Origin: Phycisphaerae bacterium
GTDB lineage: Bacteria; Planctomycetota; Phycisphaerae; Phycisphaerales; SM1A02
Assembly: GCA_002702575.1 (NCBI GenBank)
Contig: PAAJ01000016.1
Coordinates: forward strand, 1 to 64,000
Direction: 5' to 3'
DNA length: 64,000 bases
Below are positions 2,608 through 57,322 of the stretch, in pieces. The notes beneath the pieces were generated by a model. The model saw nothing but the letters and a program-made list of their open reading frames with translations, was not told the origin of the DNA and made no database searches. Numbering within the stretch: position 1 is the first letter of the stretch; each line of letters begins with the position of its first letter. The position numbers and the translations under genes were made by a program.

Positions 2608-2632
2608 ATACCTGAGACCCGGAACACAATGA

Positions 2633-2663
2633 GAGCCGGACTGCTACATCTGCAGACCGGCTC
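2633..2663 (+). terminator. Hairpin after TPR gene
   Basis: The arms GAGCCGG and CCGGCTC pair perfectly. After one A/A mismatch the inner arms CTGC and GCAG pair around a 7-nt loop. It starts 26 nt after the TPR stop and is followed by a weakly T-rich stretch (CTTGCTTCATT). It is probably a Rho-independent terminator, though the T-tract is poor. Confidence 0.45.
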
Positions 2664-2772
2664 CTTGCTTCATTGAATTCTCGAACTCTGTATGGACCTA
2701 ATCACATGGGACCCAGGCATCCATCAGGGCCAGTATGTCATCCGCATCGTCATTGCCATGACCTATGAAGAA

Positions 2773-2804
2773 CCAGCCGGGATCATCACGATGATCCCGG
2801 CTGG
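2773..2804 (-). terminator. Perfect 14-bp hairpin between convergent genes
   Basis: CCAGCCGGGATCAT and its exact reverse complement are separated by CACG. The hairpin lies 26 nt beyond the stop of the minus-strand dockerin gene and is followed on that strand by TTCTTCAT. Its strong GC-rich stem suits a terminator for the minus strand and could block read-through in both directions. Confidence 0.6.
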
Positions 2805-2829
2805 CCGAACAGCTTCAGGCTTGAATGGA

Positions 2830-3939: not shown

Positions 3940-4002
3940 GATTCTCCTCCCGTGCGATTCAAATGATTGAATGCACGTCTTCATGACACGTTATGGATTT
4001 CA

Positions 4003-4021
4003 GGGGCTGCCCCGCAGCCCC
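4003..4021 (-). terminator. GC-rich hairpin
   Basis: GGGGCTGC and GCAGCCCC flank a 3-nt loop. It lies between the end of the minus-strand translation operon and the dockerin gene. There is no T-run, so it may be a back-up terminator or a structural element in the dockerin leader. Confidence 0.3.
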
Positions 4022-4075
4022 CCCGAGATCCCCCGCCGACTTCAAACTAACGAGACCGCTCTTCTTTCCAGCAGC

Positions 4076-4100
4076 AAAAATCCGAAGTGCATCACACTTC
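4076..4100 (-). terminator. Intrinsic terminator of the nusA-acyP-lipoprotein operon
   Basis: On the minus strand GAAGTG-TGATG-CACTTC is followed by GGATTTTTG, a short stem plus a run of five T. It lies about 40 nt after the stop of the last gene of the operon (4141). The GAAGTG arm can also pair with an upstream ACTTCAA element, giving competing folds. Confidence 0.5.
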
Positions 4101-4140
4101 AAACATCAATGAAAATTGAAGTCGAAAGCGTCCCGCGTTG

Positions 4141-4593
4141 TCAGGGCTGATCCGATTCAGCAGCAGCAGCAGCAGGCCTCGGTCCGCTGAGAAGCGAACG
4201 AACTTCCGAAAAGTAACGTTCCGCCTCGAACTGGAACTTGGTCGGCAGACTGAAGGCCCTGTTTCGGATCACCACGCCGGGTGGATCCCCCTGAACCAGC
4301 TCCACGGTGAAGATCCACGAGGCTTCCTGATGAAGCGGTTTGGTCATCGGCCGCTGAAGAACACGTTCAAGCAATCGATCGATCTCGATCACATGCGCGT
4401 CCTCATCGATCTCGACGAAGTTGTCCACAACCGTCCATCGCTTGGTGTAATGCGCCGTCTGGTAATCGGGCTGCTGCGCAACGGCCTTCATCGCCGTCCA
4501 GACCTGCTGGTCCGTCGACCCCGGAAATCGGGCCTGCATCGAACAACCCGTGGAGATCAGGACCGGAAGCAGCATGAGCAACAGGTGTTTCAT
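4141..4593 (-). CDS. Predicted lipoprotein of unknown function
   Basis: The start is set at the Met whose ATG overlaps the stop of the acylphosphatase gene by one base (TGATG); the upstream part of the listed ORF is out-of-frame acyP sequence. The product is 150 residues, beginning with a lipoprotein signal ending LISTGC, so lipidation at that Cys is expected. The mature part has mixed alpha/beta character with a central VDNFVEIDEDAHVIEIDRLLE stretch and an Ala-rich end. No family was recognised. It is the last gene of a translation-related operon and is probably translationally coupled to acyP. Envelope location is inferred from the lipobox only. Confidence 0.75.
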   Translation of the reverse strand: MKHLLLMLLPVLISTGCSMQARFPGSTDQQVWTAMKAVAQQPDYQTAHYTKRWTVVDNFVEIDEDAHVIEIDRLLERVLQRPMTKPLHQEASWIFTVELVQGDPPGVVIRNRAFSLPTKFQFEAERYFSEVRSLLSGPRPAAAAAESDQP

Positions 4594-41458: not shown

Positions 41459-43459
41459 GTGACCAAATCCTCCGAGACATCCCTGGAAACCGATCAGCCT
41501 CTGCAGAGAGGCTCCAGCAGCCTTCGATTCAAGAGGTACAAGAAATCGCATCGTGCGAAAATCAAGCAGCAACGCACGGATCGCACGTATGTGACTTTTC
41601 GCGGTACATCCCGCAGCATGAAGCGAACGCGTTCGGCGATCAGTCTGTTCCGCACATTTGTTTCCATGCTTGGTCGACGCCGCAGAACGCTTGTCTTCGC
41701 ACTGACGATTCTGTCGATCTCGACCATTCTGGCCCTGATCCCACCAGCTGCGACCAAACTGGTCATCGACTACGCCTTCACTGGTGATTCACTCCCAGCA
41801 AGCGTCTCGGCCTGGGTTCCCGATTCCTGGCAACTCGATGATCATCCAAAGCGACTGCTTCTGACCATCGCGATTGCCCTGGTCATCGTCGCCTTCGCAA
41901 GTGTGGCCTGTGGTCTGACCGGTCGATGGCAGGCCACCAAGGCCACCCGAACCCTCGCCGTCGCCTTGCGCAAGAAGGTCTTTGACCATGCCGTCAGGTT
42001 GCCCCTGAACCGGATCAGCGAACTTCGATCCGGCGGCGTCGCGAGTCTTCTTCGGGAAGATGCCGGCGGGATCGCCGAACTCATCTTCGGCATGATCTAC
42101 AACCCATGGCGAGCCATCATCCAGTTGGCCGGCATCCTCGTGATCCTGGCCTTCACCGACTGGCGATTGCTGCTGGGTGCGCTGGTGCTGCTTCCCATGG
42201 TCTGGTTCACACATCGGACCTGGATCGGTCGCATTCGACCGTTGTATCGAGACATCCGCGCACAACGCTCGAACATCGATGCGCATGCCACCGAAGTGTT
42301 CTCGGGGATGCGGGTCGTTCGGGCCTTCGGTCGTGATCGTTCCGAAACCTCACGATTCACATCCGGCAATCACATGCTGGCACGCCAGGAAATCCATGCG
42401 TGGTGGTGGTCGCGCATCACCGAGACGACATGGGCCCTGGCCATTCCGATTGCCAGTGCCGCCCTGCTCCTCTACGGAGGCACTCAGGTGCTCGAGGGCA
42501 CCATCACGATCGGTGATCTCGTCATGTTCCTGACCTACCTGGTCCTGCTGCTGGGTCCGATCGAAACACTGGCCTCCAGTGCGACGTCCTTCCAGACCAA
42601 TCTTGCCGGGCTCGATCGCGTGCTCGATCTGCTCGATGAACAGCGTGAGCTCCCGGATCGTGAACAGGCCCTTCAGCTTGACATGGCCAACGCTCAAGGT
42701 TGCATCGAGATCACGGATCTGGGCTTCACGTATCCGCGTGCGACCGAACCCGTCCTGCACGACATCAGCTTCACGGCACAACCCGGTCAACTGATCGCCT
42801 TCATCGGCGCTTCGGGTGCCGGCAAGACCACCTTGTGCAATCTGATTGCCCGCTTCTACGATCCGACTTTGGGTTCGATCCAGATTGATGGTGTCGACCT
42901 TCGCGACATCAGGCTGGACAGCTACCGCAATCTGATCGGCATCGTGGAACAGGATGTCTTTCTCTTCGATGGCACGATTCGGGACAACATCGCCTTTGGT
43001 CGTCGAGGCGCGAGTGATGCAGAGGTCCGGTCAGCAGCGGAAGCCGCCAATGCACTGGAGTTCATCGAGGACACGCCGCAAGGCTTCGACACGTTGATCG
43101 GCGAACGTGGTGTCCGGCTCTCCGGTGGCCAGCGACAGCGGCTGGCCATTGCCCGCGCGATCCTGGCCAATCCGCGGATCCTGATCCTGGATGAAGCGAC
43201 CAGCAACCTCGACACGCAAAGTGAACGACTGATCCAGTCATCGATCGATCAACTGCTCGAGAACCGCACGACCTTTGCCATTGCACATCGCCTCTCGACG
43301 ATTCGTCATGCGGATCTGATCATCGTTCTCGAAGGTGGCACCATCGTCGCCCAGGGCACCCATGACTCCCTGTTGGAATCGAACGATCACTATCGCGACA
43401 TGGTCGCGGCCCAGACGGCCAAGGCCGAACGCCCCGTTCCTTCAGTTTCTAAGGAGTAG
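41459..43459 (+). CDS. ABC exporter, fused permease-ATPase (MsbA/type 1 exporter class)
   Basis: The 666 residues start with an unusual basic N-terminus of about 70 residues (FKRYKKSHRAKIKQQRTDR). The six-helix exporter TM domain (about 75-370) follows. The ATPase has Walker A GASGAGKTT, signature LSGGQRQRLAIARAI, Walker B ILILDEATSNLD and the H-loop IAHRLST. Substrates of such half-transporters include lipid A-core and drugs; a dimer is expected. The start is GTG. It lies 27 nt after the FIST gene. The last codons overlap the dockerin-metalloprotease gene on the opposite strand by 11 bp. Confidence 0.92.
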   Translation: MTKSSETSLETDQPLQRGSSSLRFKRYKKSHRAKIKQQRTDRTYVTFRGTSRSMKRTRSAISLFRTFVSMLGRRRRTLVFALTILSISTILALIPPAATKLVIDYAFTGDSLPASVSAWVPDSWQLDDHPKRLLLTIAIALVIVAFASVACGLTGRWQATKATRTLAVALRKKVFDHAVRLPLNRISELRSGGVASLLREDAGGIAELIFGMIYNPWRAIIQLAGILVILAFTDWRLLLGALVLLPMVWFTHRTWIGRIRPLYRDIRAQRSNIDAHATEVFSGMRVVRAFGRDRSETSRFTSGNHMLARQEIHAWWWSRITETTWALAIPIASAALLLYGGTQVLEGTITIGDLVMFLTYLVLLLGPIETLASSATSFQTNLAGLDRVLDLLDEQRELPDREQALQLDMANAQGCIEITDLGFTYPRATEPVLHDISFTAQPGQLIAFIGASGAGKTTLCNLIARFYDPTLGSIQIDGVDLRDIRLDSYRNLIGIVEQDVFLFDGTIRDNIAFGRRGASDAEVRSAAEAANALEFIEDTPQGFDTLIGERGVRLSGGQRQRLAIARAILANPRILILDEATSNLDTQSERLIQSSIDQLLENRTTFAIAHRLSTIRHADLIIVLEGGTIVAQGTHDSLLESNDHYRDMVAAQTAKAERPVPSVSKE

Positions 43460-45350
43460 GCGCTTCTCGCTCGATCGTGACTCGATAGCCGTAGCGTTGA
43501 TAGCTTGAGAAGTGATCCGGAACCGAGACGATGACCAGATAGACTTCGCTTTGCGTGGCGGTGACATTCACCGTACCGCTGCCGTTGAGTGCATCGGTCA
43601 TGTCGATGGACGAGTAGACGGGACCGTCCTCACCCATGACGACGATTCGGCCCATGAAGCGCGACGCTGCGCCTTCAGTGCCGTTGGCATCCCCTTCGAT
43701 CGACATCGTGTACTGGGCAGCCTGACTGTTGTTGATGCGGATGACGTTGTAGGCCCAACCGCGGGGTGCCTGACAATCCGGATCCACCGGTGGTGAATCG
43801 ATGCACGGCTCGAAGGTCCACTGGTCGACGATGTCCACATCGTTGATCTCGGCGATGTAGGGATGGGCGTTCTCCGGATCACCGACCCATTTGGCTTCCG
43901 CAATGGCACGCTCCACCTGTTCCGGTGTCAGGTAGTCGAGTCCACCGGTGTTCCGTCCCGCCCAATCGGCGAACTTGGTTCGGAAGGCTTCAGCGCCGAT
44001 CTGCTGGGACAGGTAGGCCTGCGGACTCAGTTCCGTACCGGTGTAGAACCCGTTGGTGATGATGGCGGGATCGACACCAGCTTCCTTCTCGAGGTAGTAG
44101 AGAAGCGTGTGCATTCCGTACTGTCGCACCTGGTAGTACCAGTCCGTTGGATCACCCGGTGCTTCGTTGCTGAAGCTGTGCCAGAGCGCCAGTTGCGGAT
44201 TGGCCGTGATGGCGGCGGCTTCGATGAAGGCGTTCACATCACCGGGCATGTTGGAAGCGGCATACCACTGGGCACTGCTTTCGATGTACCACTGGCTGTC
44301 ACCGGCATAGGCGAATCCCGGTGAACTGGCCTGATACTGAAAGATGTGGAATCCCTCGTGGAAGGTGTTCGCCGGATCGGTGTTGAGGCCGGCGGGCAGC
44401 GTGAGGAAGGGCATGCCGTTGCTGTCGGTGCCCTGCCCGTTCACCCAACCTTCGGGGAAGTCGTCGTTGGCACCGTGATGCACGTAGATGTTGTAGAAGA
44501 AGCAGGATTCCGGATTGGGCGGGTCACGCATGCCCAGATTCAAGAGGCAATCATCACGGACCGCATTGAACTGCTCGAACATGATCGGCGCATCATCGGT
44601 GTGATCGAATTGCGGCGCCCACCAGATGGCGAAAATTCCATCGGTCACGACGACCGGTGGTTCCGGCAGTTCAAACGTGTTGTTGAGCACGTAGGACGTG
44701 GCGCACTGACCCCATTCGGAGATCACCAGAAGCATATCCAGCACGCCGACTGTGCAGTCGAAGTCAAGATCGCCTGTTCCACCTGGCTGACCCCAGTTTG
44801 CCAGGACGGCCAGGATGTCATCCGCGTTGACCTGGGTGTCGAGGTTGGTATCGGCCGGGCAGTCGCAGGGGTTTTCCTGTGGTTCGATGGAAAGCGTTGC
44901 CATTCCAGGGCCGCCTTCATCGACGGAGTAGCCACCGATGCGAAACAGATATTCGATTCCAGCGGTGGCGATGAAATCAACTTCGGAGTGATACACCTGA
45001 CATGATGGATCGTTCTCCGTATCACCGTTGCAGGCGAGATAGGTCAACGCGTCGCAGTCACACTGCAGGTTCGAGTAGACCATGATGCTGGTATCGAATG
45101 AACCTGGTGCGCAGGTCGAGAGCGTGATCAGCCCATCGACATCGGGTGTGTAGGACATCCAGATGTCGCGGCTCATCTCCCCCATGTAGACACAATTGCC
45201 TTCGACCGGCAGCGTGCCGTCTGCATGGTTGGATGTGTTGAAGATGCTGGACCCCGGCTGGATGGCGATGGCCGTATCACAGTCTTCGCCAGCGAGTCCG
45301 GTGGATGGGCTGCTCAAGAGGAGGGCCAGAATGGTCGCGATCAGGTTCAT
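43449..45350 (-). CDS. Secreted HExxH metallopeptidase-like protein with internal dockerin
   Basis: The 633 residues start with a signal peptide (MNLIATILALLLSSPSTGLAG). Residues about 22-155 form a Cys-containing pre-peptidase-like beta-sandwich (DCDTAIAIQPG.., IWMSYTPDVDG). About 160-215 is a two-segment dockerin-like unit (ADTNLDTQVNADDILAVLANWG, DLDFDCTVGVLDMLLVISEWGQC), unusual because it is internal. The region from about 330 has TFHEGFHIFQYQ (HExxH) and then WYIESSAQWYAAS with a candidate Glu ligand, suggesting a gluzincin. A C-terminal beta domain follows. It probably acts as an extracellular peptidase. A TATCGT box lies 11 nt upstream of the start. Confidence 0.8.
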   Translation of the reverse strand: MNLIATILALLLSSPSTGLAGEDCDTAIAIQPGSSIFNTSNHADGTLPVEGNCVYMGEMSRDIWMSYTPDVDGLITLSTCAPGSFDTSIMVYSNLQCDCDALTYLACNGDTENDPSCQVYHSEVDFIATAGIEYLFRIGGYSVDEGGPGMATLSIEPQENPCDCPADTNLDTQVNADDILAVLANWGQPGGTGDLDFDCTVGVLDMLLVISEWGQCATSYVLNNTFELPEPPVVVTDGIFAIWWAPQFDHTDDAPIMFEQFNAVRDDCLLNLGMRDPPNPESCFFYNIYVHHGANDDFPEGWVNGQGTDSNGMPFLTLPAGLNTDPANTFHEGFHIFQYQASSPGFAYAGDSQWYIESSAQWYAASNMPGDVNAFIEAAAITANPQLALWHSFSNEAPGDPTDWYYQVRQYGMHTLLYYLEKEAGVDPAIITNGFYTGTELSPQAYLSQQIGAEAFRTKFADWAGRNTGGLDYLTPEQVERAIAEAKWVGDPENAHPYIAEINDVDIVDQWTFEPCIDSPPVDPDCQAPRGWAYNVIRINNSQAAQYTMSIEGDANGTEGAASRFMGRIVVMGEDGPVYSSIDMTDALNGSGTVNVTATQSEVYLVIVSVPDHFSSYQRYGYRVTIEREAPTP

Positions 45351-45501: not shown

Positions 45502-46860
45502 TCAGGGGCAGGCACCAAAGGCACTGAGCAGGTTCAGAATGTCATCGACGTCGACATCGCCATCATTATCTGAATCCGAACTGCAGGGAGCCGGACAGTC
45601 GGCGCACGTTCCGCCTTCGGTCCAGCTGCCGCCGAGATCGGTGCAGGCCGATTCAGCGATGACCGTGCATCCGATCGTCACGCAGCACGCGCCGGTCGTG
45701 GCTGTGCTTGCACTGGAACTGAAGAAGTAGGCACTGCCGGTATAGTCGTTGGTTACCGGGGCCCCGATCACGCAGGTGTCACCGTCGATGGTGACGCTGC
45801 CGTAGTTGCCCTCGTAGTCACCGTTGATGAGTTCAGCGACCTGGCCCCAGGTTCCGCCGCTCTTGGTGAAGAGGTAGGCACTGCCGCTGCTGAAGATCGT
45901 ATCCGTGGCCCCGATCACGCAGGTGTCACCGTCGATGGCGACGCCGATGCCGAACTGGTAGTAACTGAATCCATCGGGGTCGGAGAGTTTCGCGGCCTGG
46001 CTCCAGGTACCGCCACTCTTGGTGAAGACGTAGGCACTACCGGTATAGGAGTTGGTTCCCAAGGCCCCGATCACGCAGGTGTCACCGTCGATGGCGACGC
46101 TGATGCCGAAGGTGTCACCACTTGCTGCATCCGAGGCAGTGAGTTCAGCGACCTGACTCCAGGTGCCGCCATTCTTGGTGAAGACGAAGGCACTGCCGGT
46201 TTCGGAGCTGGTTCCAGCGGCCCCGATCACGCAGGTGTCACCGTCGATAGCGACGCTGATGCCGAACTGGTCTTCGCTTGCTGCATCCGAGGCAGTGAGT
46301 TCCGCGACCTGACTCCAGGTGCCGCCGGTATTGGTAAAGATGTAGGCACTGCCGCTATAGGAGTTGGTTCCCGGGGCCCCGATCACGCAGGTGTCACCGT
46401 CGATGGCGACGCTGATGCCCAACTGGTCTCCGCTTGCTGCACCAGTGGCGGTGAGTGCCGCGACCTGACTCCAGGTGCCATTGGTACTGGTGAAGACGTA
46501 GGCACTGCCGGTTTCTGAGTTGGATCCAGGGGCACTGATCACGCAGGTGTCACCGTCGATGGCGACTCTGGTGCCGAACCGGTCGTAACTTGCTCCATCA
46601 GTGGCGGTGAGTTCCGCGACCTGGCTCCAGGTGCCATTGGTGTTGGTGAAGACGTATGCACTGCCGGTTTCGGAGTTGGTTCCCTGGGCCCCGATCAAGC
46701 AGGTGTCACCGTCGATGGCGACGCTGGAGCCGAAGTTGCCGCTATCGGGGGCGGTGAGTTCGTTGGAAAGATTGACGGGTAATGGAGCCCAGTCACCGAG
46801 TCCGGTTCCGGCGAAGCTCAGCGACGCAACGGTCGCCACGATGATGGTTCGAATAGTCAT
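45502..46860 (-). CDS. Secreted FG-GAP-like beta-propeller protein with Cys module and dockerin segment
   Basis: The start is at MTIRTIIVATVASLSFAG (signal peptide), preceded by GGGAGAGGG; the listed ORF is longer. Seven repeats of about 52 residues (SVAIDGDTCVIGAPGTNS..GSAYVFT..GTWSQVAEL) match the FG-GAP-like pattern and could close a seven-bladed propeller. They are followed by a Cys-rich module (GACCVTIGCTVIAESACTDLGGSW) and one dockerin-like segment (DSDNDGDVDVDDILNLLSAFGAC). It is probably exported and surface-associated. Repeat units are nearly identical at DNA level. A promoter candidate lies at 46898-46925. Confidence 0.88.
   Translation of the reverse strand: MTIRTIIVATVASLSFAGTGLGDWAPLPVNLSNELTAPDSGNFGSSVAIDGDTCLIGAQGTNSETGSAYVFTNTNGTWSQVAELTATDGASYDRFGTRVAIDGDTCVISAPGSNSETGSAYVFTSTNGTWSQVAALTATGAASGDQLGISVAIDGDTCVIGAPGTNSYSGSAYIFTNTGGTWSQVAELTASDAASEDQFGISVAIDGDTCVIGAAGTSSETGSAFVFTKNGGTWSQVAELTASDAASGDTFGISVAIDGDTCVIGALGTNSYTGSAYVFTKSGGTWSQAAKLSDPDGFSYYQFGIGVAIDGDTCVIGATDTIFSSGSAYLFTKSGGTWGQVAELINGDYEGNYGSVTIDGDTCVIGAPVTNDYTGSAYFFSSSASTATTGACCVTIGCTVIAESACTDLGGSWTEGGTCADCPAPCSSDSDNDGDVDVDDILNLLSAFGACP
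45766..46716. repeat. Seven tandem about 156-bp repeats coding the propeller blades
   Basis: The core GATCACGCAGGTGTCACCGT recurs near 45766, 45913, 46069, 46225, 46379, 46537 and 46693 (the last copy reads CAAGCAGG). The spacing is mostly 154-158 bp, 147 bp for the first interval. The high nucleotide identity suggests recent duplication or gene conversion. Confidence 0.85.
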
Positions 46861-46897
46861 GGATCCCTCTCCCACGGGCACCAGTGCCCAAGCCCCC

Positions 46898-46925
46898 ACT
46901 CTAGAAAACGCAGGGCTGGAATCAA
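46898..46925 (-). promoter_or_regulatory. Sigma-70-like promoter of FG-GAP gene
   Basis: TTGATT and TAGAGT on the minus strand are separated by 16 nt, about 38 nt upstream of the start. The leader contains an inverted repeat GGGCAC-CA-GTGCCC before the ribosome binding site. Confidence 0.45.
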
Positions 46926-46938
46926 TCACATTTCGTGA

Positions 46939-48081
46939 TCATGTGGTCTCAATGCGGTTTTCACCATCATCAACCGAAAAAAGATGAGCCTGTGACAGAT
47001 CAGCACGAAGGGAAGCCGAGTCACCTTCACGCAGTCCGGAACCCGACGCGATTCGGGCCGTCATTCTTCGGTGATCGTTTGCGAGGATCACATCGGTTCG
47101 ATCACCCAACTGCTCCACCACATCCGCTTCACCTGTGAACATGGCATCACCATCTGAGACAAGTTCCAGATGCTCGGGTCGGATTCCCAGCGTGACCCGT
47201 TGACCAACCGACAACGATGGCCAACGATCTTTTGGCAGTTGGATGCGTACATCCCCATCCGCCTTGAACATCACCCCATCTTCGATGACGCCTTCGATGA
47301 AGTTCATCTCGGGCGTACCGATGAACGACGCCACGAATCGGTTGGCCGGCTGTTCATACAACCGGGCTGGTGGCCCACACTGCTGCACGACGCCATCCTT
47401 CATGACCAGCAGACGATCACCCAGGGTCATCGCCTCTTCCTGATCATGCGTGACATGAACCATCGTCGCACCGAGCTGCCGATGCAAACGGCGCAGTTCG
47501 GTACGCATCTCACCGCGCAGTTTGGCATCCAGATTCGAGAGTGGTTCATCCAGGAGGAAGACGCTCGGGTCCCGGACGATCGCACGGCCCAGGGCCACCC
47601 GCTGGCGCTGTCCACCGGAGAGTTCACGTGGCCGACGTTCCAGGAGATCACTGAGACCCAGAACAGTTGCGGCGTCCTGGACACGCTTGCGAATCGAGGC
47701 GCGTTCCTCATGTCGCGATCGGCGGTAGCTGCCTGAGATCAACGAACGAAGCAGACTCGGGTACTGCCGTCGTCGCAACAGACCGAAGGACAGATTCTGC
47801 CCGACACTCATGTGGGGATAGAGTGCGTAATCCTGGAAGACCATCGCGATATCACGATCACGGGCGGCAAGATTGTTGACCTGCTTTCCATTGATGAACA
47901 GATTGCCGTCCGTAATGCTTTCCAGGCCGGCGATCATGCGCAGCGTCGTGCTCTTGCCGCAACCAGACGGACCGACCAGCACGATGAACTCGCCATCGGC
48001 AATCTCCAGTGAGACACCATCGACTGCCCGGACACCGCCCGGGTACGTCTTGCCGATCGTGTCGAGTCGTACATCTGCCAT
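46939..48081 (-). CDS. Sugar ABC transporter ATP-binding protein (MalK/UgpC type)
   Basis: The 380-residue ATPase has Walker A GPSGCGKST, Q-loop FQDYALYPHM, signature LSGGQRQRVALGRA, Walker B VFLLDEPLSNLD and H-loop HVTHD. A C-terminal MalK-type regulatory TOBE domain (LGIRPEHLEL) follows. Between the Q-loop and signature there is an extra basic insert of about 20 residues (RRRQYPSLLRSLISGSYRRS) absent from typical MalK. It lies 2 nt after the MalG-type permease, closing a minus-strand operon for sugar uptake. Confidence 0.94.
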   Translation of the reverse strand: MADVRLDTIGKTYPGGVRAVDGVSLEIADGEFIVLVGPSGCGKSTTLRMIAGLESITDGNLFINGKQVNNLAARDRDIAMVFQDYALYPHMSVGQNLSFGLLRRRQYPSLLRSLISGSYRRSRHEERASIRKRVQDAATVLGLSDLLERRPRELSGGQRQRVALGRAIVRDPSVFLLDEPLSNLDAKLRGEMRTELRRLHRQLGATMVHVTHDQEEAMTLGDRLLVMKDGVVQQCGPPARLYEQPANRFVASFIGTPEMNFIEGVIEDGVMFKADGDVRIQLPKDRWPSLSVGQRVTLGIRPEHLELVSDGDAMFTGEADVVEQLGDRTDVILANDHRRMTARIASGSGLREGDSASLRADLSQAHLFSVDDGENRIETT

Positions 48082-48083
48082 CG

Positions 48084-48947
48084 TCAGCCCTTCACCGCCC
48101 CAGCGCCGATGCCTTCCACGAAGGCACGCTGCGCTGCAAAGAATAGAACAACACAGGGAATCATGGTGACCACGCTCACCGCCATCAGCAGATGGACGTT
48201 ATCAAGCCCGCCGTACTGGTTCCGGAAGGAGTTCAGGGCCAGGGCCAGCGTGGACTGGTCATCGGAGTGCAGATAGATCAACGGTCCGAGGAAATCATTC
48301 CAGACGAAGATGAAGGTGAAGATCGCCGTGATGGCCGTCACCGGCTTGCACATCGGAAGAATGATGCGCCACCAGATACCCAGCATGCCGTACCCGTCGA
48401 TGCGGGCCGCTTCGATGAGCGACTCGGAGATCTGGGCAATGAACTGCCGGTACATGAAGATGAAGAAGGCACTGCCGAAGAAGGCGGGGATGACCAGCGG
48501 CAGAATCGTGTCGATCCAGCCCATCGAACGGAATACGAGGAACAATGGAATCATCGTCACCTGCGCCGGCAGCATCATGGTCGCCAGCATCAGAATGAAC
48601 AACGGTCCACGACCACGGAAGTTGATGCGCGCGAAGGCGAAACCGACCAGACTTGAAGAGAGAACCGTTCCGATCACGACCAGTACCGTGATCACGATCG
48701 AGTTTGCCAGCGCATCGAAGAAACCCTGCCAGGGCTCGGTACCGATCTGCTTGAGCGCCTCGGCATAGTTCGACCAGTGAATCTCCTCGGGCCAGACTGC
48801 AATGGAACCGCCCCCTTCGGCCGCAGCACCGGCGCGTTGCGGTGATTCCAGGGAGATGACCAGCATCCACCACAATGGAAACAGCATCGCCAGCGAACCG
48901 ATCGCCAAGGCCAGACCTGCGAAGAATCGTCCCGTCCAACGACCCAT
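48084..48947 (-). CDS. Sugar ABC transporter permease, MalG type
   Basis: The 287-residue protein has six predicted TM helices and the cytoplasmic EAA loop EAARIDGYGMLGIWWRIILP, which docks to the ATPase. The N-terminal TM and a periplasmic region with IHWSNYAEALKQIG are typical of carbohydrate CUT1 permeases. Its ATG overlaps the stop of the upstream fusion gene (TGATG), so the products are probably made in matched amounts. The substrate is likely alpha-glucan-derived oligosaccharide, judged from the divergent GH13-malQ-glgP operon (inference). Confidence 0.94.
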   Translation of the reverse strand: MGRWTGRFFAGLALAIGSLAMLFPLWWMLVISLESPQRAGAAAEGGGSIAVWPEEIHWSNYAEALKQIGTEPWQGFFDALANSIVITVLVVIGTVLSSSLVGFAFARINFRGRGPLFILMLATMMLPAQVTMIPLFLVFRSMGWIDTILPLVIPAFFGSAFFIFMYRQFIAQISESLIEAARIDGYGMLGIWWRIILPMCKPVTAITAIFTFIFVWNDFLGPLIYLHSDDQSTLALALNSFRNQYGGLDNVHLLMAVSVVTMIPCVVLFFAAQRAFVEGIGAGAVKG

Positions 48948-51334
48948 CAGCGCAACCCCTCGTAATGAACCATGCGAGCACTGCCGCGCAACGTCAACAT
49001 CGTCAGACCCAGAATGATCAACAACAGCAACCAGGCCATGGCCGAGGCATAGCCCATCTCGTAGAAATCAAAGGCCTGGTTGTAGAGATACAGAACATAG
49101 AAGCGAGTGTGATCGCCTGGTCCCCCGCCGGTCATCACGAACGCCTGCGTGAAGACCTGGAAGGAACCGATGAGTGACATGATCACGTTGAAGAGGATCA
49201 CCGGTGAAATCATCGGAAGCGTCACACTGAAGAAACGGCGAACAGGACCGGCTCGATCGATCTCGGCCGCTTCGTACAGTGACCGCGGAACATTCTGCAG
49301 ACCGGCGAGATAGATCATCATGCTGCCGCCGACCAGCCAGAGACTCATGATCGCGAAGGCCGGCGCGCCAAAGGCTTCGGCATCACGTACGAACCAGTCC
49401 GGTGGTTCCAGTCCCAATGGTGACAACACGGGATCGAGCATCACGTTCATCAGACCGTTCTCGGCGTTGAACACCCATCGAAACAGAACAGCCATGCCCA
49501 CGCCGGCCAGAATGCTCGGGAGATACCAGGCCGCTCGGAAAAACGAAACACCACGTACCTTCACATTCATCAGGACGGCACCGATCAACGCGACGATCTG
49601 ACCGATGGGAACGGCAAGCAACGCATAGACGGCCGTGACTTCCAGACTGCGCCAGAAAACGTCGTCGTGTCCAAGCAACTGGCTGTAGTTCGCCAGACCG
49701 ACGAAGTCCGCTTCATCAAGCGTGGTGATGCCACTCCATCGTGTGACAGACAACGCCAGGGAGAGCAGAATCGGAACCGCCATGAAGATCAGGAAACCAA
49801 TGACCCACGGTGAGACCAGCAACCAGCCGGATCGTTCTTCAACCATCTGGGCGGGATCAGGTCGATTGCGACGCAACATCCACCAGCCGATGGCCAATGC
49901 GATCAACAGCCCGATGATGAAGACACCGACAATCCACAGCCAGGGCATGCCGGGCAGTGATGGACTGGCCAACGGACTGGTGCGTTCCACGTTCCACCAG
50001 TCGCTTGCCTTCACGAGCGCCTCCTTGACCGGGAGGTCTCCGGTTCGCAGCGCCTGATCAAGTCGCTTGGCAACGGTGCCTTCCAATGCAGGGTTGGTCG
50101 ACCAGGGAACGACCCGTGCATAGTCGACGGGATCGATGAAATCGCGATCACGTGATGGTGGTGTCGCCGGATCGATGAAGGAATCACCTTCTGCCACCGT
50201 GCGATTGGTGGGAACAGCAAGACCGAGTTCGGCCTGCTCGGCCTGCGTAGTCGCACCCGTCAACCAGGACACCAGTTGCCAGGCTTCTTCCGGATGTTCC
50301 GTGCGCGATGAAATCGACCACGCCACCGTCGCAATCATGTTGGCAGACGTCTCGCCCCGCGGCAGCGGTGCGTAATCCCATTGGAAGTCCTCGATGGTTC
50401 GATAGGTCGGTACGACCCAGCGACCGAACGGTCCGGCAAAGCCAAGCTTCCCCCCGAGGAAACGGGAAGCCGGATTGGCCGTCTCCGAACGGCCGCTTGT
50501 CAGCGTGCGTTCTTCATCGTGCCGCCAACTGCGGATGCGATCCAGAACTTCAATGACACGCGGATCATCGGCTCGGATGTTTCCTTCAGCATCGATGAGA
50601 TCGACACCTTCCGTCCAGAGAACGGCCCGCACCATGGAAGCCCATGAAACGAATTCGGCACCGGTGCAGTCAGGAAGCGAACCGACCGCACGCGCCGAGT
50701 CGATGAAGTCGTCCCAGGTCCAGTCGGATGATGGCTCAGGTACACCCGCACGCTCAAGAAGGTCACGGTTGTAATAGAAACCAACGGTCGTGAAGTCCTT
50801 GGGGATGCCCCACAGCGAACCACTGCCGACTTGACCATCTTCGAAACGGAAGGCATCGACCGTCGATGGATAGAAGTCCTGCAGTTTGAAATCACCGGCG
50901 GTGCTGCTGGACGTACTCAGTTCATCAAGCGACAGCAGAAGACCGGCGTCGGCATAGGCTGCCAATCGCTCCGCACCGACGTAGAACACATCCGGCGGAT
51001 CTCCGGCAGCCATCATCGTCTGCAGCTTCGTATAGAAGGAACCAGCATCCCCGGGGTTCAAGCGAGTCACATGGATCGTCGGGTTCGCTTCCTCGAACCG
51101 CGCCAGGGCCCGATCGACGATGGCGTCTTCTGCCGGCCCCCCATCACCGGACCAGTGCATGACCACCAGTTCGGTCTTGCCACCCATGGCCTCGGAGCGA
51201 AAGATCTCCCGGACACCAACCCGTGCAAAGGCCCACGCCACCAGGGCCAGCGAGAGAACTAGCAGCACAGCTCGAGCCAACCGGCCGGCCAGGGCCTTGG
51301 GAGATGAACGTGAGTTGGTCCGTTCAGAGGACAT
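48947..51334 (-). CDS. Fusion of extracellular sugar-binding protein and MalF-type ABC permease
   Basis: The 795 residues combine two normally separate proteins. An N-terminal TM anchor (ARAVLLVLSLALVAWAF) is followed by a family-1 solute-binding protein (about 50-430) with MHWSGDGGPAEDAIVDRAL, GDPPDVFYVG and SLWGIPKDFTTVGFYYN. A second TM helix (WLWIVGVFIIGLLIALAIGWWML) leads into a MalF-like permease with EAA loop EAAEIDRAGPVRRFFSVTLP. The binding domain is thus tethered to its channel at fixed stoichiometry. No separate binding protein is found nearby. It is the first gene of the uptake operon and is divergent from the GH13 gene, with only 32 bp between starts. Confidence 0.92.
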   Translation of the reverse strand: MSSERTNSRSSPKALAGRLARAVLLVLSLALVAWAFARVGVREIFRSEAMGGKTELVVMHWSGDGGPAEDAIVDRALARFEEANPTIHVTRLNPGDAGSFYTKLQTMMAAGDPPDVFYVGAERLAAYADAGLLLSLDELSTSSSTAGDFKLQDFYPSTVDAFRFEDGQVGSGSLWGIPKDFTTVGFYYNRDLLERAGVPEPSSDWTWDDFIDSARAVGSLPDCTGAEFVSWASMVRAVLWTEGVDLIDAEGNIRADDPRVIEVLDRIRSWRHDEERTLTSGRSETANPASRFLGGKLGFAGPFGRWVVPTYRTIEDFQWDYAPLPRGETSANMIATVAWSISSRTEHPEEAWQLVSWLTGATTQAEQAELGLAVPTNRTVAEGDSFIDPATPPSRDRDFIDPVDYARVVPWSTNPALEGTVAKRLDQALRTGDLPVKEALVKASDWWNVERTSPLASPSLPGMPWLWIVGVFIIGLLIALAIGWWMLRRNRPDPAQMVEERSGWLLVSPWVIGFLIFMAVPILLSLALSVTRWSGITTLDEADFVGLANYSQLLGHDDVFWRSLEVTAVYALLAVPIGQIVALIGAVLMNVKVRGVSFFRAAWYLPSILAGVGMAVLFRWVFNAENGLMNVMLDPVLSPLGLEPPDWFVRDAEAFGAPAFAIMSLWLVGGSMMIYLAGLQNVPRSLYEAAEIDRAGPVRRFFSVTLPMISPVILFNVIMSLIGSFQVFTQAFVMTGGGPGDHTRFYVLYLYNQAFDFYEMGYASAMAWLLLLIILGLTMLTLRGSARMVHYEGLR

Positions 51335-51344
51335 GAATGAGGTG

Positions 51345-51354
51345 ATCGTATAGG
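51345..51354. promoter_or_regulatory. Overlapping divergent -10 candidates between uptake and amylase operons
   Basis: On the minus strand TACGAT lies 10 nt before the fusion-gene ATG (51334). On the plus strand TATAGG lies 12 nt before the amylase ATG (51367). The two hexamers overlap by 2 bp, so the two operons probably compete or share regulation. Confidence 0.35.
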
Positions 51355-51366
51355 GTGGATGGACTC

Positions 51367-53769
51367 ATGTTGCTGTCATTTGTCATTCTGTTGCTGTCCA
51401 TCTTCGACCCCGTGGAATCGACCTGGCCCCCTCCACTGGCCAAGGCCAGATCAACCCACCTCGTGCCGACCCAACTGCCTGCATCCTTCACGGGTCAGCG
51501 TGCCGAGGATGGCTCCTGGCAGCTGGATGTCCGGTTCGAACCGGCATCACCACTGCCAACAGGGTCCAAGGTCAACATCGCCGGCAGTTTCAATCACTGG
51601 AGCACATCGGCGACCCCCATGGTCCGACGGCGACCAGGACTCTGGCATGCTCGCCTGACGGTTCCGGATGGGACCCACTGGTACAAGTTCATCGTCAATC
51701 AGGAGAACTGGCTTCCGGATCCGCTCAACCGCGATACCGAACCCGACGGCTACGGTGGAGTCAATTCCGTCCTGCGACTGGGACCCGAAGCCAATCTGCG
51801 AGCGGATCTCGCCAGACTGGGTGATGGTCACATCGATGCGGCGGGACTGAAGCATGATCCGCTGCAACCACGCTATCTGCAACGAAGAGATTCCGACTCG
51901 TGGCGGATTCGCTTCTGCACACTGACTGGCGATGTCCAGTCGGTCAGCATCGCCAGCCCCGGAACACCGCCGATTCCGATGACGGCTATCCTCAGCAACG
52001 ACCGGGACCAGTGGTGGGAAGCTGTTGTTCCTGATCGTGGCGATGCCTTTCCATATACGTTCATTCTCCAGGACGGTGATACTCGAGAACGCCATCAAGA
52101 CATCCATGCCATGACTGATTCACAACAGATCCAATTCACGACGCCCGAATGGGCACGCGACGCCATCTGGTACCAGGTCATGATCGACCGGTTCCGTGAC
52201 GGCAATCCTGTCAACAATCCCGATCCCGTGAGGCCCTGGAATTCCGCCTGGTACGAGAGCAGTCCCTGGGAAGGCGCGGATGGACAGACGTTCTACGAGT
52301 ACTACGTCTTCTCCAGAATGTACGGCGGCGATATCCAGGGGCTCATGGAACAACTGGACTACCTGTCCGAACTCGGTGTCAATGCGCTGTATCTCAATCC
52401 GGTCTTCGAAGCGGACAGTCATCACAAGTACAACGCCACCAGCTACATCCACATCGACCAGGCATTCGGACAAGGCAGCGACTATCAGCAGGCCGAGGCA
52501 CAGGAAGATCTGCTTGATCCCTCGACATGGACGTGGAATGAAAGCGATCGCATCTTCCTGGACTTTCTCAAGGAAGCCCATGCCCGTGGATTCAAGGTCA
52601 TCATCGACGGCGTCTTCAACCATGTCGGTGTCGACCATCCTGCGTTCCGGGATGTTCTGGAGAATGGCGAGGACTCCAGGTTCACGGACTGGTTCTCGAT
52701 CACATCCTGGGAACCGTTCGAGTACGACTGCTGGGGCGGATTCAAGAGCCTCCCCGTCTTCCGCAAGAACGAGGAGCATGGCATTGCCTCTCAGGAAGTC
52801 CGCGATCACATCATGCAGGTCACGACCAGGTGGATGGATCCGGACGGCGATGGTGATCCCTCCGACGGTATCGATGGTTGGCGACTTGATGTTCCCAATG
52901 AAGTCCCGCTCGCCTTCTGGATCGAATGGCGAAAGCATGTCAAGTCGATCAATCCGGATGCCTACATCACCGGTGAGATCTGGAACCGCGCCGAACAATG
53001 GCTGGATGGACGTTCATTCGACGCCGTCATGAACTATCCATTCGCGGAGAACACGCTGGCCTGGATCGGCAACCGCAACGACAAGATCACACCGACCGAA
53101 CTTGACCGTCGACTGGCCGAGTTGCGACTGGCCTATCCCGAACCGGCCACCAATGTCCTTCAGAACCTGCTTGACAGCCATGACACGGATCGATTCGTCT
53201 CCAAGATCCACAACCCGGATCGGCCCTATGACCAGGGCAATCGCGAACAACAGGATTCCACCTACGACGGATCGAAGCCGCCCGCAGAGGCCTATCGCAA
53301 AGCGAGGCTCGCCGCCTTTGTCCAGCTCACCTACCTGGGCGCCCCCATGATCTATTACGGCGATGAAGTCGGCATGTGGGGATCCGATGATCCGAACAAC
53401 CGCAAACCGATGCCCTGGCCCGATCGAGGCCCCTACGAGGATGAAGGTTTCGAGTTCATGCCGGAGCATCTTGATTTCTATCGACGCGCCATCGCGCTTC
53501 GAAGAAGCTCACCCGCGCTCAGTCGAGGCGAGTTCCAGACGGTGCAGGTCCACGATGACAACGACACCTGGGCCTTCGTCAGAACGCTGGGCGATGAAGA
53601 GGTCCTGGTCGCAATCAATGCGTCGGATCGAGATGCGACCATCGACCTGCCAGATCTCGGAGATGGATGGACGCAGGTCTTCTCCGAACCGGCTGATACG
53701 GATGCCGGGGCACCGCCTCAACTGAAACTGCCGCCACTCGGGGCTGCAGCCTGGCGTCGGAATCAATGA
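51367..53769 (+). CDS. Exported GH13 alpha-amylase/neopullulanase-like enzyme
   Basis: The ATG at 51367 follows GGTGG and begins a signal peptide (MLLSFVILLLSIF); the GTG at 51355 is an alternative. About residues 50-145 are a CBM48/CBM20-like beta domain (KVNIAGSFNHWS) and about 150-255 a second N-terminal domain. The GH13 barrel has the nucleophile Asp in DGWRLDVPNE, acid/base Glu in ITGEIWN and the transition-state Asp in LLDSHDTDR. It ends with an all-beta C-domain. It would trim alpha-glucans, probably in the periplasm, as no dockerin is present. The stop overlaps the malQ start (ATGA). Confidence 0.93.
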   Translation: MLLSFVILLLSIFDPVESTWPPPLAKARSTHLVPTQLPASFTGQRAEDGSWQLDVRFEPASPLPTGSKVNIAGSFNHWSTSATPMVRRRPGLWHARLTVPDGTHWYKFIVNQENWLPDPLNRDTEPDGYGGVNSVLRLGPEANLRADLARLGDGHIDAAGLKHDPLQPRYLQRRDSDSWRIRFCTLTGDVQSVSIASPGTPPIPMTAILSNDRDQWWEAVVPDRGDAFPYTFILQDGDTRERHQDIHAMTDSQQIQFTTPEWARDAIWYQVMIDRFRDGNPVNNPDPVRPWNSAWYESSPWEGADGQTFYEYYVFSRMYGGDIQGLMEQLDYLSELGVNALYLNPVFEADSHHKYNATSYIHIDQAFGQGSDYQQAEAQEDLLDPSTWTWNESDRIFLDFLKEAHARGFKVIIDGVFNHVGVDHPAFRDVLENGEDSRFTDWFSITSWEPFEYDCWGGFKSLPVFRKNEEHGIASQEVRDHIMQVTTRWMDPDGDGDPSDGIDGWRLDVPNEVPLAFWIEWRKHVKSINPDAYITGEIWNRAEQWLDGRSFDAVMNYPFAENTLAWIGNRNDKITPTELDRRLAELRLAYPEPATNVLQNLLDSHDTDRFVSKIHNPDRPYDQGNREQQDSTYDGSKPPAEAYRKARLAAFVQLTYLGAPMIYYGDEVGMWGSDDPNNRKPMPWPDRGPYEDEGFEFMPEHLDFYRRAIALRRSSPALSRGEFQTVQVHDDNDTWAFVRTLGDEEVLVAINASDRDATIDLPDLGDGWTQVFSEPADTDAGAPPQLKLPPLGAAAWRRNQ

Positions 53770-55181
53770 GTCGACCGCATCCCCTCTTCACCAAACGGGC
53801 CGCGGGTGTGCTGATGCACCCCACATCCCTGTCCAAGGGACATGGGATCGGTGACATCGGACCCGGTGCGCGGCACTTCATGAACTGGATGTCCAAGGCC
53901 GGCCTGTCCCTGTGGCAGATGCTTCCCATCGGACCCATCGGCCGTGGCAACTCCCCCTACAGCGGCCGATCGGCTTTTGCTGGAGAGCCGCTGCTCATCA
54001 GTCTTGATGATCTGGCCGAAGACGGTCTGCTCACCAGACGATCGATCCGTTGCCCGGATGATCTGGCCACTGGGCGAACTCGATATGCGGCTGCCCGGCG
54101 TTTCAAGATGGCTCGGTTGAAAGATGCCTTTGATCAGTTTCGGCGGAGCAATCGCGCACGTTCGCGACGCTATCGGGATTTCGTCAAGGAGAATCGATAC
54201 TGGCTGGATGACTGGTGTCTCTTCGCAGGTGGCGATCCAGATGAACAGGTCTTCATCCAGTATGTCTTCGATTCCCAGTGGAAAGCTCTGCGGAAACATG
54301 CCAATGACCAGGGGATCCGACTGGTCGGCGATCTTCCGATCTTCATGGATTCGGACTCGGCGGATGTCACCCAGCACCCTGAACTCTTCGCACTTGACCG
54401 GTCCGGAAAGCCCAAGTGGCTGACCGGCGTACCGCCCGACAGCTTCAGTCGGAATGGACAGCTCTGGAACCATCCTCAATATCGATGGCCGGCGCATCGT
54501 GATGAAAACTGGCGGTGGTGGACAGCACGCTTCCGTCAGGCGCTCGATCGATTCGATGCGCTCCGGCTGGATCACTTCATCGGCTTCGTCAGGCTCTGGC
54601 ACGTTCCGGCTTCAGCCCGGACAGCACGCCATGGAACCTGGCGACCGACTCCAGGGCGGGACCTTCTTCAGACGCTCCGAAGACGCCTAGGACCCTTGCC
54701 CATCATTGCCGAGGATCTTGGTGCCAAGACCCCTGCCGTGGATCGACTTCGCGATGATTTCGGACTGCCGGGCATGAGGATTCTCCAATGGGCCTTCGGC
54801 AGCACGGAGAACGGAGATCTTCCCCACAACCATCCCGCACAGGCCGTGGTCTACCCCGGAACACACGACAATGAAACCGCTTCCGGGTGGGCACGGCAAC
54901 TCGATCCATCCAGCAAAAGGCGTTTCCAGGCCTATGCCGGTGAGGACCAGTCCCCACCGGAGGCGATGGTGCGTCTGGCGATGACGTCGCCGGCGACATG
55001 GGCGATCTGCATGACTCAGGATCTGCTGGACCTGCCGCCCGCAACCAGAATGAACCGTCCCGGAGTCGCCCGTGGCAACTGGACGTGGAGGCTCTCCGAA
55101 GGCACACTGTCGAACCTTCGAGCCAGATCCATCAGACGATTGGTCGAATCCAGTGGACGTCTTTCAGGAGCGAATTCGTGA
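53766..55181 (+). CDS. malQ: 4-alpha-glucanotransferase (GH77)
   Basis: The 471-residue protein has the GH77 catalytic residues: nucleophile Asp in RLDHFIGF, acid/base Glu in IIAEDLG, and stabiliser Asp in GTHDNET. The substrate loop region MLPIGPIGRGNSPYSGRSAFAG is also present. It disproportionates maltodextrins in the cytoplasm and so supplies longer chains to the phosphorylase. It lacks a signal peptide and extra N-terminal domains. It overlaps the preceding GH13 gene by 4 nt and its TGA overlaps the GTG of glgP, so the three genes are coupled. Confidence 0.96.
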   Translation: MSRPHPLFTKRAAGVLMHPTSLSKGHGIGDIGPGARHFMNWMSKAGLSLWQMLPIGPIGRGNSPYSGRSAFAGEPLLISLDDLAEDGLLTRRSIRCPDDLATGRTRYAAARRFKMARLKDAFDQFRRSNRARSRRYRDFVKENRYWLDDWCLFAGGDPDEQVFIQYVFDSQWKALRKHANDQGIRLVGDLPIFMDSDSADVTQHPELFALDRSGKPKWLTGVPPDSFSRNGQLWNHPQYRWPAHRDENWRWWTARFRQALDRFDALRLDHFIGFVRLWHVPASARTARHGTWRPTPGRDLLQTLRRRLGPLPIIAEDLGAKTPAVDRLRDDFGLPGMRILQWAFGSTENGDLPHNHPAQAVVYPGTHDNETASGWARQLDPSSKRRFQAYAGEDQSPPEAMVRLAMTSPATWAICMTQDLLDLPPATRMNRPGVARGNWTWRLSEGTLSNLRARSIRRLVESSGRLSGANS

Positions 55182-57322
55182 TCGAACGGAATGTGCCAGG
55201 TGAAGCAGCCAGAAGCAAGCTGGAAGATGATCCACGAGCCATCAGGCATCGGCTGAAGACCTTGTCGAAGGATCTCTGGTGGTCATGGAATGAAATCGGG
55301 CGTCGACCCTTCGCCATGCTCGATCCTGAGCTCTGGGAAACTGTCCGGTACAGCCCGTACAGACTCCTCCAGAAAGTCGATTCCAACAACTACGCCAGCC
55401 GTCTGGCCGAACCCTCTTTTCGCAAGGTCGCCGCCCGTGCGATTGTCGCGCACCATGAGTATCACAATCGACGCAGCTGGTACGAAGCCCAATCAGATCC
55501 CATGGATCCACCGCTTCGGATCGCCTACTTCTGCTCCGAGTATGCGATTCATGAAAGTCTTCCCCAATATGCGGGCGGACTCGGCGTGCTGGCAGGTGAT
55601 CATCTGAAATCGGCATCCGATCTCGGTCTCCCGCTGGTGGCCGTAGGACTGCTGTACCAGCATGGCTATTACAAGCAGGAATTCCGTGATGATGGCACGA
55701 CGCGTGTCATCTATCCCTCCTTCGATGCCGAGGCGATGCCCCTTGATGACACAGGCGTCAGATTGGACTGCCCTGTCGGTGATCGAACCGTTCGCGTGCG
55801 AGTCTGGGCCATGTCGATGGGTCGCGTACCGCTCTACCTGCTGGATGCCAATCTGCCGGGCAACAAACTTGAGGATCGTGCCCTGACCGCAAGCCTCTAC
55901 CAGGGCGATGACGACATTCGCCTGCAAAGGCAGGTGCTGCTGGGGGTCGGCGGCTATCGAGCGTTGAGACTCCTGGAGGAAGTGCCCACGGTCATCCATC
56001 TGAATGAAGGCCATGCCGCCTTCGCCGCAGTCGCGAAACTCTCCGAGCTCGTTCATGGCGGGATGAGCTACGAGGACGCGAAGCAGGCAGTCCGCTCCAG
56101 CACGGTGTTCACGACGCACACGCCGGTTCCAGCAGGCAATCAACGCTATGACGCCATCAAGTTGCGTGATGCGCTCAAGCCCGTCCTCGAACCCGCAGGA
56201 CTGGACCCCGAGATTCTCAACACACTTGGCCGTGAAGACCCTCATGACCAGAATGAAGCTCCATGCATGACCGTCCTGGCCCTGAGACTGGCCGAACGTG
56301 TGAATGGTGTATCTGAACTTCATGGCGCTGTTTCCCGGGAGATGTGGAAAAAGGCCTACGGTCAGGAGGATCCCGACCAGGTTCCCATCAAGCACATCAC
56401 CAATGGGGTCCACACCGGTACCTGGATGGCCCCCGTCGCAGAACGATTCTGGTCGGAAGCCATCGAATACGACAAGGCGCCTGGCCCGAAGAACCCCTGC
56501 TGGGCTCGAGCCCAAACCGTCGATCATCGTGCATTCTGGGAACTCCGATCATCGCTGAGAAGACGCCTGCTCTCCTTCGTCAGACGCAGGCTGGCATTCC
56601 AATCAAGGCGACGTGGTGAAAGCCCTGAACGTGTTGTTCGAAGTCGTCGCATGCTGCAGGACTCTGCATTGACCATCGGGTTTGCGCGCCGTTTCGCAAC
56701 CTACAAGCGAGCCACTCTGCTGTTCCATGATCTCGACCGGCTGGCAGGCATTCTGAGTCACGACGATCGTCCAGTTCAGGTGATCTTCGCCGGCAAGGCT
56801 CATCCGGCCGATGAAGGCGGGCAGGCTGTCGCACAGGAAATCCATGAACTGTGCAGAGAATCCCGATTTGATGGCAAGGTGGTCCTGCTCGAGAACTACG
56901 ACATCGAAATCGGACGTCGACTGACCTCAGGTTGCGATCTCTGGCTGAATACCCCAAGGCGTCCCTTCGAGGCCAGTGGAACCAGTGGCATGAAGCCGCC
57001 GCTTCATGGTGGAATCAACTGTTCGATTCCGGATGGCTGGTGGGTTGAAGCGGACGACGGCCACAATGGCTGGACCATCGGCGATGGATCACCGGCTGAG
57101 AACGAGCAGCTTCAGGATGAGCGTGACGCCAATCGGCTCTACGACCTGCTCGAACACGAGATCATCCCCGCCTTCTGGGATCGGGATGAGCAGGGCCTCC
57201 CACAGGCCTGGATCGAACGTGGCCTGCATACGGTGGCCACCATCCCGGAGTGGTTCAATACGGACCGAATGGTGGCTGAGTACCTTGAATGGGGCTACAA
57301 ACCCGCTTCGATTCAGGTCTGA
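55178..57322 (+). CDS. glgP: Alpha-glucan phosphorylase (GT35, short DUF3417-containing type)
   Basis: The start is revised to GTG 55178, which overlaps the malQ stop (GTGA) and has AGGAG 7 nt upstream; the ORF-track start lies 180 bp inside malQ. The 714 residues begin with the DUF3417 region (LKTLSKDLWWSWNEIGRRPF) and continue with IAYFCSEYAIHESLPQYAGGLGVLAGDHLKSASDLG. The PLP-binding Lys lies in EASGTSGMKPPLHGG. This compact class releases glucose-1-phosphate from glycogen or maltodextrin. With MalQ it completes cytoplasmic glucan breakdown. Confidence 0.95.
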   Translation: MIERNVPGEAARSKLEDDPRAIRHRLKTLSKDLWWSWNEIGRRPFAMLDPELWETVRYSPYRLLQKVDSNNYASRLAEPSFRKVAARAIVAHHEYHNRRSWYEAQSDPMDPPLRIAYFCSEYAIHESLPQYAGGLGVLAGDHLKSASDLGLPLVAVGLLYQHGYYKQEFRDDGTTRVIYPSFDAEAMPLDDTGVRLDCPVGDRTVRVRVWAMSMGRVPLYLLDANLPGNKLEDRALTASLYQGDDDIRLQRQVLLGVGGYRALRLLEEVPTVIHLNEGHAAFAAVAKLSELVHGGMSYEDAKQAVRSSTVFTTHTPVPAGNQRYDAIKLRDALKPVLEPAGLDPEILNTLGREDPHDQNEAPCMTVLALRLAERVNGVSELHGAVSREMWKKAYGQEDPDQVPIKHITNGVHTGTWMAPVAERFWSEAIEYDKAPGPKNPCWARAQTVDHRAFWELRSSLRRRLLSFVRRRLAFQSRRRGESPERVVRSRRMLQDSALTIGFARRFATYKRATLLFHDLDRLAGILSHDDRPVQVIFAGKAHPADEGGQAVAQEIHELCRESRFDGKVVLLENYDIEIGRRLTSGCDLWLNTPRRPFEASGTSGMKPPLHGGINCSIPDGWWVEADDGHNGWTIGDGSPAENEQLQDERDANRLYDLLEHEIIPAFWDRDEQGLPQAWIERGLHTVATIPEWFNTDRMVAEYLEWGYKPASIQV

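Follow-up and report, generated by a model that had tools for sequence, protein, structure and literature searches.

The locus studied here raises the question of whether a CUT1 sugar importer can carry its receptor within one of its own permease chains. The window, the 64,000-nucleotide stretch of Phycisphaerae DNA that was analysed, contains on its minus strand a gene (positions 48947-51334), named malEF here, that starts with ATG and runs for 795 codons without an internal stop. Its product features in one chain an SBP_bac_1 domain (PF01547, residues 71-364, E 4.9e-35) and a BPD_transp_1 domain (residues 577-779, E 1.1e-11), both Pfam matches being well over the curated cut-offs. The receptor part also matches PF13416 (1.6e-28). 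The chain begins with a predicted transmembrane (TM) helix at residues ~17-41 (51212-51286, minus strand; hydropathy and model). It continues with a putative extracytoplasmic sugar-binding domain at residues ~54-445 (50000-51175, minus strand), assigned by Pfam, PDB sequence match and fold match. A second TM helix at residues ~465-489 (49868-49942, minus strand), seen in hydropathy and as helix 465-489 of the structural model, would lead the chain back to the cytoplasm. There follows a six-TM CUT1 permease core of UgpA/MalF type at residues ~503-793 (48956-49828, minus strand; Pfam/NCBIfam and PDB matches). This order of helix, binding domain, helix and permease in a single 795-residue polypeptide had been proposed by a sequence-only reading of the window and is confirmed by the open reading frame (ORF), Pfam, hydropathy and the AlphaFold model.

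Each half of the protein has well-characterized relatives. The best PDB sequence match of the binding domain, which is strongly conserved among homologues, is the arabino-oligosaccharide receptor AbnE (6rjy, E 6e-43), with Lmo0181 also near, while a fold search retrieved Lmo0181 (TM-score 0.85 on target), AbnE and several MalE-type receptors. The solved relatives of the permease half by sequence are the trehalose permease SugA (8ja7), 7cad and MalF (2r6g). None of the PDB matches listed is a solved chain matching both malEF domains. The permease carries an EAA loop, the ATPase-coupling motif LYEAAEIDRAGPVRRFFSVTLP (residues 686-707; 49214-49279, minus strand), whose E688, A689, D693 and P707 are invariant in homologue alignment A2. 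By every homology test made, malEF is thus classified as a component of a CUT1 importer, and the Pfam/NCBIfam family matches bear out the sugar-transporter nature attributed to it from the letters alone. The label of MalF-type permease given in the same reading holds for the role but not in detail: the permease half scores 8.5e-32 with UgpA versus 4.1e-20 with MalF (NCBIfam), and its six-TM core is UgpA-like and lacks the MalF P2 loop.

The genome of the window is a draft of 32 contigs, and an error of assembly or sequencing could in principle have joined two genes. This explanation can practically be dismissed, since dozens of independently assembled genomes encode the same architecture in one ORF, including the single-contig complete genomes CP036296 and CP054190. 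The frameshift or stop between the domains that had been feared is excluded by the same ORF in those independent genomes. There are 67 non-redundant full-length homologues fused in a single ORF, and those in alignment A1 are 32-81% identical to the window protein once near copies are removed. Both halves of malEF are under strong purifying selection. In comparison with the closest homologue, which shares 93% identity, the binding domain has a dN/dS of 0.044, the permease 0.039 and the linker 0.093, so that values are low across the junction, which also argues against an error.

A survey of taxonomic spread revealed a conserved planctomycete family. The fused ORF occurs in 75 of the 132 genomes of the window's family (60 of 104 when high-quality genomes are counted; 20 of 40 genera), and at E <= 1e-100 in 13 of the 294 genomes of an even Planctomycetota sample that includes other planctomycete families. 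Contamination or the oddity of a single genome was considered and ruled out by this phylum-wide search. The fused gene was not found at E <= 1e-100 in 57 of the 132 family genomes. It is also missing from a 95% complete genome (G004) of the same genus as the window, and the system is thus often lost or absent. Three records titled Bacteroidia, Chitinophaga and Limnohabitans (L034, L057 and L077) hold the planctomycete cluster at 52-57% identity; they are probably mislabelled or misbinned assemblies.

The hydropathy profile of malEF displays a TM segment at residues ~23-41 and another at 468-486, the binding domain between them having none; the helices of the permease follow. The AlphaFold model, for which 53 homologues were used (mean pLDDT 83, pTM 0.77), places one helix at residues 12-49 and another at 465-489, on either side of a bilobed alpha/beta domain, and shows the permease as helical. 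Basic residues precede the first TM segment and come after the second one, as expected for cytoplasmic ends. This distribution fits a chain with its amino terminus inside, the binding domain outside and the linker to the permease inside, and we infer this topology for the protein in vivo.

The helices that flank the binding domain could serve another purpose. A single polypeptide might be made and then cut by a periplasmic protease or by signal peptidase, yielding a free or N-anchored binding protein and a seven-TM permease that work as a conventional transporter. The amino terminal sequence could be recognised by signal peptidase, and the amino termini of the more distant fusions L107 and L109 resemble ordinary signal peptides. 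In the main clade, however, the first helix carries a conserved WAFARVxxR motif, with V39 found in 55 and R42 in all of 57 aligned rows. This is unlike a cleaved signal peptide and favours a helix that stays uncleaved and has its own function. On the amino side, a short tether of ~12 residues (10-25) separates the invariant Arg42 from the first strand in the main clade. The tether on the carboxyl side is also short, ~17 residues (14-20) between Trp447 and Trp465, and it is these two tryptophans that are conserved there rather than any cleavage motif. Processing of the chain is therefore unlikely, and the amino terminal helix of malEF is likely to be an uncleaved signal anchor. The window protein has no cysteine at all in its first 60 residues and by the lipobox test is not a lipoprotein receptor; a cysteine occurs in the amino terminal region of only 12 of 57 homologues, and no lipobox is conserved.

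Is the tethered domain the receptor of the system? No free CUT1-type binding protein was found in the genome of the window (the 32-contig draft), where only two other SBP_bac_1 matches occur, both of them weak. The first (G000:C11:96867-98618; 868-2619, plus strand, in locus L117) is SBP_bac_6-like and 583 amino acids long; it has a TM segment at its N-terminus and extends far at its C-terminal end. The second is a 342-codon frame on contig 30 that lies beside other permeases. By sequence neither resembles a CUT1 receptor. The receptor function thus very probably lies with the fused domain, which is tethered on both sides. The MalF P2 loop is a periplasmic docking domain for MalE. It provides a precedent for the domain being a docking scaffold or a low-affinity accessory while a separate free protein captures the sugar, and extra scaffolds of this kind are conceivable. 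Such a role is very unlikely here, given that the domain is a complete and strongly conserved binding protein that aligns end to end with oligosaccharide receptors in a genome lacking any other CUT1-type one.

The malG-like second permease is encoded immediately downstream (48084-48947, minus strand; Pfam/NCBIfam UgpE/MalG), its start codon sharing 1 nt with the malEF stop. PF00528 is matched by both permease chains, and their EAA residues are conserved in the alignments. After a 2-base gap comes a malK/ugpC-like ATPase gene (46939-48081, minus strand) whose product has OB and TOBE domains and matches PF00005, PF17912 and PF08402 over cut-off, as well as the UgpC model (442.2 versus a cut-off of 432). 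Both of these partners of malEF have complete motifs. CUT1 transporters of this kind are MalF/MalG heterodimers. Since malG has no binding protein domain and no free CUT1 receptor was found in the genome, presumably one receptor domain would be present per transporter, a 1:1 ratio, as the sequence-only reading had reasoned.

On the opposite strand diverge three genes of alpha-glucan metabolism. The first (51355-53769, plus strand; Pfam Alpha-amylase 4.4e-47) codes for a GH13 protein of amylase/neopullulanase type with an N-terminal CBM48-like domain and a hydrophobic signal sequence. It is followed by malQ, coding for a GH77 4-alpha-glucanotransferase (53766-55181, plus strand; Pfam 2.7e-138), and by an alpha-glucan phosphorylase gene (54998-57322, plus strand) whose product has DUF3417 and phosphorylase Pfam domains and whose true start is probably downstream of 54998. 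The start codons of malEF and of the amylase gene are ~20 to 30 bases apart (51334-51367). They are so close that both promoters, if present, overlap coding sequence, or one of the RNAs is leaderless; a sigma-70 promoter scan gave nothing over chance. Beyond the ATPase gene, the minus strand encodes two predicted secreted proteins (43449-45350 and 45502-46929), one with FG-GAP-like repeats. Both carry DxNxDGxVDxxDILxxLxxxG segments that are like dockerin/calcium-binding repeats.

This gene order was compared at 75 homologous loci, some of which are one genome reached twice and many of which end at contig edges. On the side of the fusion, malG is present at 75 of 75 loci and malK at 62; on the opposite strand are the amylase gene (63 of 75), malQ (50) and the phosphorylase gene (38). 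The conserved cluster supports a putative role in alpha-glucan uptake, and it is from gene neighbourhood alone that we infer maltodextrin as the substrate of the malEF importer. The permease and the ATPase are as similar to Ugp proteins as to Mal proteins, so the substrate could differ. An importer of the architecture described but with a different oligosaccharide as its substrate, say, or a glycerophosphodiester, finds support in the best sequence relative of the binding domain, an arabino-oligosaccharide receptor, and in UgpA, UgpE and UgpC being the best family models for the permeases and ATPase. It has a small but real chance of being correct; against it, UgpC-like ATPases serve many sugar systems, and the neighbourhood of amylase, malQ and alpha-glucan phosphorylase genes is conserved over many genera.

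The explanation of the locus that we consider likely is a CUT1 importer of MalFGK2 type in which the receptor and the larger permease subunit form one covalent chain. The first TM helix of this chain would act as a non-cleaved signal anchor with its amino terminus inside. The bilobed domain would be held in the periplasm, ~12 residues from the first helix and ~17 from the second, which would bring the chain inside ahead of the six-TM permease core. MalEF, MalG and two MalK subunits would then form a transporter with one receptor domain. Malto-oligosaccharides made by the exported amylase would be captured by the tethered domain, which would close and dock on the periplasmic face of MalEF/MalG, with sugar release coupled to ATP hydrolysis by MalK. 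Inside the cell, MalQ and the phosphorylase would process the imported sugar.

The fusion was also searched in other bacteria, using the fused alignment as query and scoring five candidates per genome. Among the matches listed for 201 Chloroflexota and 200 Bacillota genomes, all that span both domains hold at least one stop. When the DNA of the closest matches was read directly, the binding protein and the permease were separate ORFs. Candidates with open frames of 777-836 in Alicyclobacillus, and others in Bacillota or Chloroflexota, were rejected as fusions, those read being separate ORFs or having an upstream frame without a binding protein. No fused annotation was found on plasmids: of nine records with >80% query coverage at one place, six are annotated as two genes and the other three have no annotation under the match. 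As far as Chloroflexota, Bacillota and plasmids were sampled, the fusion appears specific to the planctomycete lineage.

Two unfused Bacillota CUT1 permeases, L152 (957-3305, plus strand) and L155 (1599-3110, plus strand), begin with an additional TM helix, which in the alignment corresponds to the second TM helix of malEF, from model position ~461. They share this helix with malEF but their binding protein is a separate ORF, and the seven-TM permease gene of L155 lies directly 3' of it. It is plausible that such an arrangement represents the stage immediately preceding fusion. In-frame joining of a secreted receptor and a seven-TM permease would yield exactly the topology observed.

Fusion appears to have occurred more than once. 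Two further chains of binding protein and CUT1 permease, L114 with 764 amino acids (1598-3892, minus strand, genome G049) and L147 with 970 (1382-4294, minus strand, genome G041), are ~28-30% identical to the window protein and come from another family of the same order. In G041 the fusion gene is followed by a malG gene whose product has a large insertion between the first helix and the core. The fusions L106 to L109 share 32-38% identity with the window protein. The permease tree unites the main family and L106 in one clade (97/97) and places L107/L109, L108, L114 and L147 elsewhere; a topology forcing all fusions together is rejected (p-AU 0.010), although the long branches of L114 and L147 call for caution here. 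A faster tree built from the receptor domain puts L108 and L114 among unfused receptors (99 and 97), apart from the main clade. The separate domain trees thus disagree with a single origin and support two or more independent receptor-permease fusions in Planctomycetota, probably no fewer than three.

No description of a CUT1 receptor-permease fusion was found in the open-access literature; automatic domain databases may well list the malEF architecture. The maltose importer is the textbook type I ABC importer, and its kinetics are described on the basis of a free receptor, present in excess, that docks and leaves again. A natural 1:1 tethered importer would offer a test of what receptor excess and dissociation contribute, and the tether would give a stable receptor-transporter complex for structural work. 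The repeated origin in one phylum also raises the question of what in planctomycete cell biology favours fusion. One speculation is an enlarged periplasm, which would dilute a free receptor.

The malEF system resembles MalEFGK2 of E. coli in having a receptor, MalF- and MalG-type permeases with EAA loops and a MalK with C-terminal OB/TOBE domains, and in its putative role in an alpha-glucan cluster. The two differ in that MalE is separate and soluble and MalF has a P2 loop, whereas malEF carries the receptor in the permease chain and has no P2. MalE is present in 30-50 fold excess (PMC9045158); in its unliganded form it associates with the outward-open transporter at about 79 nM, and it departs when maltose is plentiful (PMC3328499). 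A tethered receptor could neither leave nor be in excess, and its capture capacity and regulation are therefore predicted to differ. The six-TM core without P2, the UgpC model passed by the ATPase and the proximity of SugA and 7cad relate malEF to UgpABCE and LpqY-SugABC, whose receptors are nevertheless free or lipid-anchored. A separate receptor protein, a customary trait of CUT1 systems rather than one that defines them by homology, is lacking in the malEF system.

Receptors fused to permeases are already known in OpuA and GlnPQ; what appears to be new is such a fusion in CUT1. Like malEF, the glycine betaine importer OpuA (OTCN) has its receptor covalently linked to the permease (PMC11065425). 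There, the receptor is C-terminal on the permease, the binding protein and permease belong to other families and the substrate is an osmolyte. The OpuA permease is homodimeric, giving two receptors per transporter. The amino acid importer GlnPQ (PAO) is closer in order, its receptor domain or domains being N-terminal to the permease in one chain. Its permease is a homodimer with two or four receptor domains and an unrelated substrate class, and no additional TM helix pair is known to surround the receptor. Family matches of malEF are to SBP_bac_1/8 and Ugp/Mal-type permeases, not to OTCN or PAO families; the system would work like the fused-receptor importers but does not belong to the families of OpuA and GlnPQ. 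We lean slightly towards the view that Planctomycetota repeatedly abandoned the free CUT1 receptor for obligate 1:1 chains in which it is held between two TM helices. These would make up a third class of fused importers, with kinetics independent of receptor excess and dissociation and one receptor per heterodimeric transporter, compared to two in OpuA and two or four in GlnPQ.
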